A stretch of DNA of 64,000 nt, taken from Sulfuriflexus mobilis (GTDB lineage: Bacteria > Pseudomonadota > Gammaproteobacteria > AKS1). The DNA is taken from the NCBI RefSeq assembly GCF_003967195.1, contig NZ_AP018725.1:124001-188000 (forward strand), written 5' to 3'. The notes beneath the pieces were generated by a model, which did no database searches, was not told where the DNA came from, and saw nothing but the letters and a program-made list of their open reading frames with translations. Below are positions 25,503 to 47,237 of this stretch, piece after piece. Both the position numbers and the translations under genes were made by a program. Each line of letters begins with the position of its first letter. The first letter of the stretch is position 1.

Positions 25503-25641
25503 CGTGCTGCCCGTTTCCGATTCACAATCATAATTACCGGATTTTCAGGGCATGTCAAAACACCCTGTTGGTACTGATAACAGTCAGTTACTTAGAAGGG
25601 TTTTCTAGAATAGTTTTGAGATTAAGATGCCCGTCAGGACG

Positions 25642-25702
25642 CTCATAGAACCCCAAAAACGGGTTCATCATGAGTACCTCAACCATCTCCGATGGTTCGA
25701 GG
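25642..25702. repeat. Two-hairpin intergenic element, single copy
   Basis: Hairpin 1 is CTCAT-A-GAACCC-(7 nt)-GGGTTC-ATC-ATGAG. Hairpin 2 is CCTC-A-ACCATC-TCC-GATGGT-TC-GAGG. The same architecture with different but compensating bases recurs at 45.6-45.8 kb. It sits directly beyond the rho terminator. No coding potential is evident and I do not recognise the family. Confidence 0.8.
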
Positions 25703-25705
25703 CAA

Positions 25706-44346: not shown

Positions 44347-44375
44347 ATTAAAGCGGTTGAGGCGGGTGGAGTCAA
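44347..44375 (-). promoter_or_regulatory. Promoter of tRNA-Phe
   Basis: TTGACT (44370-44375) and TTTAAT (44347-44352) are 17 bases apart on the minus strand. They are followed by a GC-rich AGCGCGC discriminator, typical of stringently controlled stable-RNA promoters. A CTCCCGAG/CTCGGGAG hairpin follows before the tRNA. Confidence 0.7.
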
Positions 44376-44464
44376 GCGACAACACACAGAAACAGGCGGG
44401 ATTTGGGGCTTGCAGGCAGAGACAGCATGCAATACCGTGTCTGCCTCACCGAAAAGCTCACGAA

Positions 44465-45565
44465 ATGGTTCTCCTTATGTCCGCCAAGATGCCGCCGAAT
44501 ATACCCCTGACGATAGCCCCGGACAGCTATCAGCTGGTTGAGACTCGCCTGCAGGAAAAACTGCCGGATGGCACGACGCGCTGTCACCTGTGCCTGTGGC
44601 GCTGCAAGCTCAAGCATGGTCAGCGCGGCTTTTGCCAGGCGCACGTGAACCGAAATGGCACGCTATATAATCTGTCCTACGGCATCCTCTCGGCCATCGA
44701 CACCGGGCCGATTGAGGAAAAACCGGTCAAACATTACCGCCCGGGTACTCGTGTCATGTCGATTGGCAGCTATGGCTGCAATTTCCGCTGTGGTGGCTGC
44801 CACAATCTGGAAATATCCTGGGGCGTGTCGGCGCTGGATGACCTGGCTCGCGGTGAATCGACCGCCGCCTGGGTGACACCTGCGGAGATGGTGGCGGTGG
44901 CACAACGTCATGAGGTACAGGGTATTGCCTTTACCTACTCAGAGCCGGCCGTATGGCTCGAGTACGTGATGGATGTTTCCAGGCTGGCTCACGAGGCCGG
45001 GCTATATACGCTTTATGTCTCGAACAGCTTCGTCACCAATGAGGCGCTGGAGATGATGGCGCCGTACGTCGATGTGTTGTGTTCGGACATCAAGAGCCTC
45101 AGGGATGATTTTTACCATGATATCTGCCCGACCGCGAAGGTCAGTCAGGTACTCGATTCTATTCACAAGGCCCACCAGTTGGGTATCCATGTAGAAACGC
45201 GGACGAATATTATCCCGGGCAAGAATGATGATATTGCAGAGCTGCGACAGATTGCCGAGTGGATTTATACGCATCTCGGTGAAGACAGTCCGTGGCATAT
45301 CACGAAGTTTTTCCCGGCCTATAAACTGTCAGATGTGCCGACTACGCCAGCAGAAATCATGTGGGCGGCACATGATGCCGCGCGTGAAGTCGGCCTGAAG
45401 AATGTTTATGTCTATGATGACAAGGGTTGTGACTGTGCCGAGAGTAATATGCCGATTGCGGAATATTTAACGGCCGATGCCGGCACGATTCACGAGATCA
45501 AGAAATGCGCGGCCAGTTGTTGTGGTGATGAAGGCATCGTTTTAAAGAAATACGAGAAAGAGTGA
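44465..45565 (+). CDS. amrS: AmmeMemoRadiSam-type radical SAM enzyme
   Basis: The 366-residue protein has the radical SAM cluster motif CNFRCGGC. An N-terminal cysteine region (CHLCLWRCKLKHGQRGFC) resembles pyruvate-formate-lyase activating enzymes, and a cysteine-rich C terminus ends in CAASCC. This is the AmrS layout; the reaction is not known, and the usual partners AmrA and AmrB are not in the window. Start is uncertain among ATGs at 44465, 44477 and 44489, none with a clear ribosome site. Confidence 0.82.
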   Translation: MVLLMSAKMPPNIPLTIAPDSYQLVETRLQEKLPDGTTRCHLCLWRCKLKHGQRGFCQAHVNRNGTLYNLSYGILSAIDTGPIEEKPVKHYRPGTRVMSIGSYGCNFRCGGCHNLEISWGVSALDDLARGESTAAWVTPAEMVAVAQRHEVQGIAFTYSEPAVWLEYVMDVSRLAHEAGLYTLYVSNSFVTNEALEMMAPYVDVLCSDIKSLRDDFYHDICPTAKVSQVLDSIHKAHQLGIHVETRTNIIPGKNDDIAELRQIAEWIYTHLGEDSPWHITKFFPAYKLSDVPTTPAEIMWAAHDAAREVGLKNVYVYDDKGCDCAESNMPIAEYLTADAGTIHEIKKCAASCCGDEGIVLKKYEKE

Positions 45566-45598: not shown

Positions 45599-45838
45599 GC
45601 TCATAGAAGCTTTAAAGGCTTAGACCATAGAACCTTGCAGGTTCATCATGGATACCCTACCCATCTCCGATGGGTCAGGGCAATTATGCTGTCTCACAGA
45701 ATCCTAACGGATTCATTATGAGCACCCTACGCTTCCAGCGTCAGGGCGACCCTACTCCACCATAGAACACTACGTGTTCATTATGGATACCTTACCTGCC
45801 TATATGGCTGGTCAAGGCAACTTCCAGTGCCGTCAGGG
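45599..45838. repeat. Tandem array of two-hairpin elements
   Basis: Three good units (45625-45680, 45693-45746, 45760-45817) and degenerate half-units at each end fill the space between the convergent amrS and yggX genes. Every unit has hairpin 1 (outer 4 bp, A against ATC/ATT or slightly larger internal loop, inner 6 bp) and hairpin 2 (outer 4 bp, A against TC, inner 4-6 bp, loop TCC in two of three). Stem bases differ between units but remain paired. The family includes 25642-25702. Confidence 0.85.
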
Positions 45839-45840
45839 CA

Positions 45841-46113
45841 TTACTCTGAAGGTGGCACAAAGGCCTCTGGGGTATCGGCACCGGCGCCAAACAAAAACTT
45901 TTCCATCTGCTCTTCAAGAAAGGCACGGCCCTTCGGGTCGATGACACTAATCCGGTATTCATTAATGAGAATGGTCTGCTGGCCCATCCACTGCTGCCAG
46001 GCCTCTTTGCTGATGGTTTCAAAGATACGCTGGCCAAGTTCACCAGGATAAGGTGGCTTGTCGAGACCTTCAGCCTCTTTACCGAGTTTTACGCATTGGA
46101 CGGTACGACTCAT
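45841..46113 (-). CDS. yggX: Oxidative damage protection protein, Fe(II)-trafficking
   Basis: The 90-residue protein matches YggX ([18 protein letters not shown]..., [21 protein letters not shown]), with the conserved Cys7. It is thought to protect labile iron-sulfur clusters. It follows mutY, whose product is an iron-sulfur enzyme, in the same conserved order as E. coli. Confidence 0.95.
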
Positions 46114-46145: not shown

Positions 46146-47237
46146 CTACAGCGTCCCGCTGTCACACTTGCCTGCGTCCATGTTGGCATAGCTATCGAGT
46201 AATTTCTTTACCGGTGCGGCAAGACCCCGTGCATCCGGCTGGCGTGTGTTATACCAGACCGCATTGGCAGAATCCATTATCGAGCTATTTAAAAATTCAC
46301 CGCGTATGTGTACGGGAGTGATGTCGAGGTGAAAGTGACTAAAGCTGTGCCGCAGGCCCGGCCATACCTGCACATCGCGCAGGGCAAACTGCAATTGCTC
46401 GCGGCACCACTTTTTCAGACTGTCCCTGCGTAGGGCACAACCGGCCTCTGGCAGGCCCCACAGGCCGCCCCACAGGCCGGTGGGGGGCCGCTGTTGCAGG
46501 TAGATGTGTCCCGCGTTGTTGCTGAGCAATAACATAATGGTCTCGCGTTCGGGCAGGGCCTTGCGAGGTTTTTTGCCGGGATAATCACTGACGGTCGCGG
46601 ATTGATATGCGAGACAGTCGATGGCAACCGGGCAGTCCGTGCAGCGGGGTTTGCTGCGCGTGCAGAGTGTCGCCCCCAGGTCCATGATCGCCTGTGTATA
46701 GTCGGCGCTACGCGTGGCCGGTGTGAGTTGCTCGGCCTGTTGCCATAATTGTCTTTCCACCTCACGTTGGCCCGGCCAGCCGGCAATGGCGAAAAAACGC
46801 GTCAGCACGCGTTTAACATTGCCATCGAGGATGGCATGTTGCTGTCGACAGGCGATACTCAGGATCGCCGCCGCCGTAGAGCGGCCAATACCGGGCAGGT
46901 CCATCACCTGTTCGAGTTCATCGGGGAAGTGACCGGCGTGCTCATCGCGAACCCTCTGTGCTGCACGGTGCAGGTTACGGGCGCGTGCGTAATAACCCAG
47001 CCCGGTCCACAGGTGTAAGACGCTGTCGATGTTGGCGTTGGCCAGAGAGAGCACATCCGGGAACTGTTGCATGAAACGCTGGTAATAGGGGATGACGGTA
47101 TTGACCTGGGTCTGTTGCAGCATGATCTCGGAGACCCATACCCGGTACGGATTGATATCCTCTTGCCAGGGCAGGTCATGGCGACCATGCTGGTCATACC
47201 AGTCAAATAACCGTTGGGAAAAATCCGGGGTCGACAT
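46146..47237 (-). CDS. mutY: A/G-specific adenine glycosylase MutY
   Basis: MutY removes adenine mispaired with 8-oxoguanine. The 363-residue protein has the catalytic Glu in SEIMLQQTQV, the helix-hairpin-helix LPGIGRSTAAAI, the 4Fe-4S motif CTRSKPRCTDCPVAIDC and a C-terminal Nudix-like domain. It starts 2 bases after the SRPBCC gene. Confidence 0.96.
   Translation of the reverse strand: MSTPDFSQRLFDWYDQHGRHDLPWQEDINPYRVWVSEIMLQQTQVNTVIPYYQRFMQQFPDVLSLANANIDSVLHLWTGLGYYARARNLHRAAQRVRDEHAGHFPDELEQVMDLPGIGRSTAAAILSIACRQQHAILDGNVKRVLTRFFAIAGWPGQREVERQLWQQAEQLTPATRSADYTQAIMDLGATLCTRSKPRCTDCPVAIDCLAYQSATVSDYPGKKPRKALPERETIMLLLSNNAGHIYLQQRPPTGLWGGLWGLPEAGCALRRDSLKKWCREQLQFALRDVQVWPGLRHSFSHFHLDITPVHIRGEFLNSSIMDSANAVWYNTRQPDARGLAAPVKKLLDSYANMDAGKCDSGTL

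Follow-up and report, generated by a model that had tools for sequence, protein, structure and literature searches.

Does the palindromic array that takes up most of the short interval between amrS and yggX in Sulfuriflexus mobilis encode a functional RNA, serve as a protein-binding array or represent a mobile palindrome? The window, that is, the whole stretch of 64,000 nucleotides analysed here (G000:C1:124001-188000, NZ_AP018725.1), lies within a single 3.11-Mb contig, and in it the two genes converge on a gap of 275 bp from stop codon to stop codon, of which the array occupies 45600-45840. The first-pass annotation, which raised these three possibilities, described three complete two-hairpin units with degenerate flanks, lying head to tail and drifting in sequence while keeping their structure. 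A check against the sequence bore out its coordinates and hairpin stems. The inner stems of the first hairpin (H1) are GAACCT/AGGTTC, GAATCC/GGATTC and GAACAC/GTGTTC, and the outer stems of the second (H2) are CCCT/AGGG (twice) and CCTT/AAGG; the H2 inner stems also read as listed, except that the third, CCTGCC/GGCTGG, contains a T·T mismatch. Folding of the array region beats 200 of 200 dinucleotide shuffles on both strands, with z about -5 to -7.

The covariance model R1, built on 15 units with the two-hairpin structure set by hand, finds four units in the window, three of which are the complete units proposed for the array (Table 1). The flanks exist as well, but they make most sense as the halves of a fourth unit, the host, which the complete ones have split, and an arrangement that is superficially head to tail reads better as a nest. 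The array is thus best read as one host unit, O, interrupted by U1 in its H1, by U2 in its linker and by U3 in its H2, a parse made by hand and not computed. The positions of U1 and U2 recur elsewhere: the arrangement of the 5' part of O matches that of other loci where H1 harbours a unit and of the loci used in the excision test described below, the junction type CTGT^CTCATAG (a caret marks the junction here and below), seen at the rest of the H1 3' arm, is found again at linker-type loci, and placements in the linker like that of U2 occur at L016 (twice), L029, L057 and L066. Once the flanks of U3 are joined by hand, the H2 5' part of the host folds onto 45820-45838. Insertion into H2 of the U3 type is a single instance and breaks the rule, given below, of entry 3' of the inner stem, and the outer stem of the host H1 has only 3 or 4 pairs. 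Elsewhere in the window, a perfect short 12-bp tandem, GCCCCACAGGCC, lies at 46455-46479 within a mutY-like gene.

Table 1. Features of the window discussed in the text; positions are counted from the first base of the window.
Feature	Positions	Strand	Basis
Single unit adjoining an A-tract and a terminator hairpin (L031)	25641-25704	+	R1, 79.1 bits
AmrS-like radical SAM protein, upstream convergent neighbour, start uncertain	44357-45565	+	PF04055
Host unit O, 5' part: H1 5' arm, loop and part of the 3' inner arm (CTCATAGAAGCTTTAAAGGCTT)	45600-45621	+	sequence
Complete unit U1, two hairpins (..CCATAGAACC..TCAGGGCA), within H1 of host O	45623-45682	+	R1, 84.6 bits, E 8e-20; fold
Host unit O, rest of the H1 3' arm (ATTATGCTG)	45683-45691	+	sequence
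Complete unit U2, within the H1-H2 linker of host O	45692-45748	+	R1, 53.8 bits
Host unit O, H2 5' part (ACCCTACTC)	45749-45757	+	sequence
Complete unit U3, within the H2 5' arm of host O	45758-45819	+	R1, 61.5 bits
Host unit O, H2 3' part and right end (ACTTCCAGTGCCGTCAGGGCA), flush against the yggX stop codon	45820-45840	+	sequence
YggX, Fe(2+) trafficking, downstream convergent neighbour	45841-46113	-	PF04362

Beyond the window, R1 returned 89 unit matches in the 3.1-Mb S. mobilis genome (G000; E up to 0.1), where BLAST found about 40 related stretches. A unit is about 54-63 nt long (~57), has no coding capacity and is made of two different hairpins in direct orientation. H1 consists of an outer stem, an A opposite ATY and a GAA..TTC inner stem; a (G/A)TA linker leads to H2, which runs CCYY, A opposite TC, inner stem and RRGG, and the 3' end of the unit reads ..GGCA. 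The bases preceding and at the foot of H2, TACC, are invariant. The two hairpins do share one design, as had been proposed: an outer stem, an A opposite ATY or TC, an inner stem and a small loop; one of them may thus be a duplicate of the other, as the first-pass annotation suggested. A second subtype (TCCCTAGAAYC..TTCTGGTC) was seen at L026, L072, L024, L061 and L084, and it also enters H1 of other units.

The claim that structure is kept while sequence drifts could be weighed on 119 matches from six genomes, which represent 111 distinct rows. In these, 93.5% of cells are paired versus 75.6% after shuffling, and double changes occur at 20 of the 21 pairs; double-change cells number 386, compared to 109±8 for shuffled alignments. 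The larger alignments were fitted to R1 and are biased towards it, while a MAFFT alignment gives the same covariation. Counts were taken from alignments A2, A3 and A4, because the MAFFT alignment A1 misaligned the short H2 stems. None of 500 shuffles reached any of the observed covariation values, sliding the partner columns by one to three positions collapses the signal, and covariation is confirmed by 20 distinct units of other families, analysed separately. It is thus far above chance, and the claim stands.

Covariation of this strength in both hairpins, together with the frequent position of units beside terminators at gene 3' ends and the view that REPs act in mRNA (PMC3733652), speaks for a structured RNA family, be it a small RNA, a 3'-UTR stabiliser or a terminator-associated element, that was amplified in tandem and whose stems are under selection in the transcript. 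We nevertheless consider this improbable. G-U pairs make up 19 of 2016 standard stem pairs (0.94%), compared to 14 of 265 (5.3%) in 12 tRNAs from the same sequences (Fisher p 6e-6). A functional RNA on the plus strand should show an excess of G·T over A·C; the stems hold 16 G·T and 29 A·C, a reverse tilt that is not significant (p 0.07), and the pairing constraint therefore does not look RNA-like. An Rfam search of the window returned only two tRNAs and no match for the array. Nor is the locus conserved: the amrS-yggX gap holds no unit in any of five element-bearing relatives, of which G001, G002 and G003 belong to the same genus and G046 and G048 to other families, even though the gene pair is conserved and all five carry units elsewhere. 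Exact insertions within another repeat family, described below, also argue against an RNA. The rarity of G-U pairs points to stems that reflect Watson-Crick pairing in DNA, or a process acting on both strands. For a protein-binding array we found nothing specific in its favour. In G001 and G003 the gap (L125, L128) is occupied by a different long palindrome (GGGTTATGTTTTTAGATGC..GCATCTAAAAACATAACCC).

Judged by comparison of sites, exact empty and filled copies show that the units are mobile. The clearest case comes from G083, which belongs to a family other than those of G000-G003, G046 and G048. Its complete genome carries 10 units, and in it GATTGCCGCGCTGCGC^TCGCAATGAC is present both empty and filled, as GATTGCCGCGCTGCGC^CCATAG..GGCA^TCGCAATGAC. 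The insertion is an exact 54-nt unit, the target is neither duplicated nor lost, and the host is a REP-like palindrome, ATTGC..GCAAT, which is bordered by CGTC on its complement. Likewise, one of the 150-bp direct repeats in G003 holds a 61-nt relative at GGGCTTC^ATTGTAAG, the H1 site, and at L020 (G000:C1:1966500-1968200) a unit interrupts a second copy of a tRNA-Ser 3' end that includes a terminator, at CGCTC^TCCGCC, while the intact tRNA nearby represents the empty site. Nested junctions of type B (TTACA^CCATAG) are one or two bases off a simple empty site. Terminal inverted repeats and target-site duplication, the classical marks of MITEs, were not found. Of the three possibilities raised for the array, it is the mobile palindrome that agrees with these exact sites, with the junction empty in relatives, with a sporadic distribution and with nesting of the unit in itself.

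The two recurrent hairpin hosts, the REP-like palindrome and H1 of another unit, have a structure in common. When empty, the REP-like palindrome folds into an outer stem, an internal loop with C opposite TC, an inner stem and a loop, and the unit enters just 3' of the inner stem, on the TC side of the internal loop; H1 is entered in the same way, immediately 3' of the inner stem and ahead of the ATY side of the internal loop. Of the 134 distinct units, 16 abut an A-tract, 15 lie in the loop of a REP-like palindrome, 13 inside H1, 5 in the linker and 4 in tandem, and 81 are in no recognisable target context. A terminator-like hairpin follows the A-tract in 14 of the 14 such units examined. Orientation is fixed at REP-like palindromes (15:0), and an A-tract follows the unit in 16 cases versus a T-tract before it in 2, a nested unit being one of these two. 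Antisense placement in the H1 5' arm, roughly the same position on the other strand, was seen for six more units. From the target rule and the fixed orientation we infer that recognition would act on a single strand in folded form. Many terminator-adjacent units (at L011, L012, L018, L032, L078, L079, L081, L083 and L104) are preceded by a longer conserved sequence (..GTGGGTTGG..TTCACCA), possibly one component of a larger composite element.

Nesting extends well beyond the window. At 20 distinct loci, a host unit spanning the junction reappears, with scores of up to 44 bits, once a unit is taken out and the flanks are joined, and at L009 and L014 the nesting is three levels deep. An excision control with shifted coordinates still gave 5-19 of 107 spanning hits and is not clean, because a shifted cut leaves chimeric units; the case for nesting therefore rests on the complementarity of the interrupted host arms, which pair with each other in 56 of 65 positions versus 43.6 after shuffling (p 1e-5). 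Most of the nested cases could descend from a small number of composite elements that spread in one piece, and nested loci are therefore not a count of independent insertions.

At E up to 1e-6, units were detected in 19 of 369 gammaproteobacterial genomes, and these carriers are scattered across about ten families. Carriers found in a pattern scan include Thiohalophilus thiocyanatoxydans DSM 16326 as well as several Gammaproteobacteria assembled from metagenomes, and there was no unit match in the plasmids, phages and viral contigs searched. The first-pass annotation suggested testing for a genome-encoded partner whose presence tracks the element across species; of the candidates examined, RAYT/Y1 proteins, reverse transcriptase and IS110, none did so. 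A divergent REP/REPIN family that is moved by a RAYT or TIRYT (TnpA-REP) and recognised without a GTAG tag is possible, if somewhat doubtful. REP_Tyr_transpos (RAYT-like) proteins are encoded in all six of the first element-positive genomes, and units adjoin a RAYT in G003; insertion without target duplication fits Y1 chemistry, and some TnpA-Y1 subclasses are flanked by atypical hairpins (PMC6006769). Such proteins are, however, also present in 32 of 50 element-negative genomes and are not flanked by units, and RAYT/Y1 was accordingly rejected as the partner. A 170-aa RAYT shared by G001, G002 and G003 (L104, L100 and L111; in the rpiA-porin gene interval of G001 and G003) is absent from G000, the genome with the most unit copies. 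Y1 transposases were found in 16 of the 19 carriers, PF01797, which is less sensitive than NF047646, giving no match in G083, G093 and G097. Of the 45 Y1_Tnp loci examined, 44 have no unit within 1.5 kb, and the site of the single exception is empty in G001. The Y1 gene of G000 itself, at 2059557 in L035 (G000:C1:2059476-2059901), encodes a 284-aa transposase (REP_Tyr_transpos, 81.8 bits) flanked by its own inverted repeats, GGGGTCAG and GGGGTCAGGTCTTGCCTTTTGCC, which resembles the TIRYT class (PMC3733652); on account of those repeats it was rejected as a REPtron for the unit. Repeats related to them, GGGGTCAGAGC, are present beside several units.

Other routes of spread appear less probable still. 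Group IIC introns target terminators, and the adjacency of units to terminators resembles that habit. A system of reverse-transcriptase or IS110 type that targets hairpins could also be imagined given the known IS elements that target REPs (PMC1525189); RVT_1 was found in none of the first six carriers, and IS110 Transposase_20 in only two of them, G000 and G048, so both were rejected as partners and we regard such a system as highly improbable. Alternatively, there may be no transposition at all, the units having multiplied by replication slippage, hairpin template switching and a gene conversion that also corrects the stems. In its favour, tandem amplifications do exist, with seven copies of 112 bp at G000:2378489 (L056, G000:C1:2378440-2379236) and 57-bp repeats in L024, the scarcity of G-U intermediates fits stem correction, and the enzyme searches found no partner. 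We still judge this explanation unlikely, since exact, same-end insertions without loss, which recur at many loci at one fixed site in an unrelated palindrome, together with dispersal across the genome and about ten families, call for a defined unit of excision and insertion. The 112-bp repeat of L056 combines a unit with the duplicated 3' end of the adjoining tRNA (TCTCACGCCGACCA), and the first tRNA is intact.

We therefore favour, with some confidence, a non-autonomous two-hairpin family of mobile DNA whose folded units would be moved in trans by a putative single-strand enzyme. By analogy, an enzyme of the Y1/HUH type acting in trans seems most likely: a single-strand endonuclease or transposase of this kind would recognise its target as a folded single strand, on the lagging strand or in a cruciform, and would excise the folded unit and paste it there. 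Stem pairing would be kept as the DNA hairpin is the substrate of the enzyme, and in the window one host unit between convergent genes would have taken three insertions, in H1, linker and H2. More tentatively, the units could represent a class of miniature mobile DNA that targets structure, entering hairpins 3' of the inner stem, its own included, and nesting; the enzyme would then be neither a RAYT nor an IS200/IS605 transposase, a proposal made because the carrier G083 gives no PF01797 match.

Among the closest systems described so far are GTAG REPs, BIMEs and REPINs, which are also short, intergenic, non-coding palindromes with many copies per genome, tandem clusters, presumed single-strand DNA mobility and a preference for gene 3' ends (PMC3733652, PMC3116915, PMC2817692). 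The unit is likewise high-copy (the 89 matches), short and palindromic and, in its window copy, which lies between stop codons, extragenic. In contrast to them, it has no consistent RAYT flanking, inserts into other hairpins and into itself, and shows no GTAG or GGAG tag at the 5' foot of H1 or H2 in the invariant columns of the unit consensus; where a REPIN is an inverted REP doublet forming one long hairpin, the unit is two different hairpins in direct orientation. CGTC REPs likewise have no known dedicated transposase, and some REP dimers are reported to be inserted within larger palindromes (PMC3733652). Those REPs carry a CGTC tag, an 8-9 bp stem and a CCA tail, whereas the unit ends in GGCA without a CGTC tag, and the CGTC-flanked ATTGC..GCAAT palindrome is its host, not the element.

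With the ends of IS200/IS605 elements the unit shares two subterminal hairpins of the same asymmetry, insertion without target duplication and orientation-specific targets (PMC6006769). It differs from them in lacking a 5' guide tetranucleotide, the H1 foot being the border of the element and H2 being preceded only by the conserved (G/A)TA, and from IS200/IS605 derivatives in its size of only about 57 nt, no autonomous copy having been found. PATEs, miniature derivatives of IS200/IS605, are a further comparison for the unit. Mitochondrial double-hairpin and repetitive hairpin elements and yeast GC clusters are two-hairpin mobile repeats as well, with stems kept and clusters that merge, but they are organellar, the yeast GC clusters have 2-3 nt target duplications, and the available text of the reports describes no structural target rule (PMC2800124, PMC4478555). 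Insertion within a palindrome is also known from REP-targeting IS elements (PMC1525189), which are full IS with transposase genes, whereas the unit is a hairpin repeat that targets itself too. The unit thus resembles REPs and REPINs or a miniature IS200/IS605 element, but it departs from the former in tag, RAYT flanking and doublet and from the latter in the 5' guide. We found no report of the two-hairpin family in the literature, with which a sequence-level comparison was not possible.

The family bears on how REP-like miniature palindromes spread. With its exact pairs of empty and filled sites, a structural target rule that is simple and holds in unrelated hosts, and a fixed orientation, it opens the way to oligonucleotide tests of hairpin-directed, strand-specific insertion. 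Being sparsely distributed, in 19 of 369 genomes, it also lends itself to a co-occurrence search for the enzyme. Apart from this, the recursive nesting of units within units records the order in which they were inserted.
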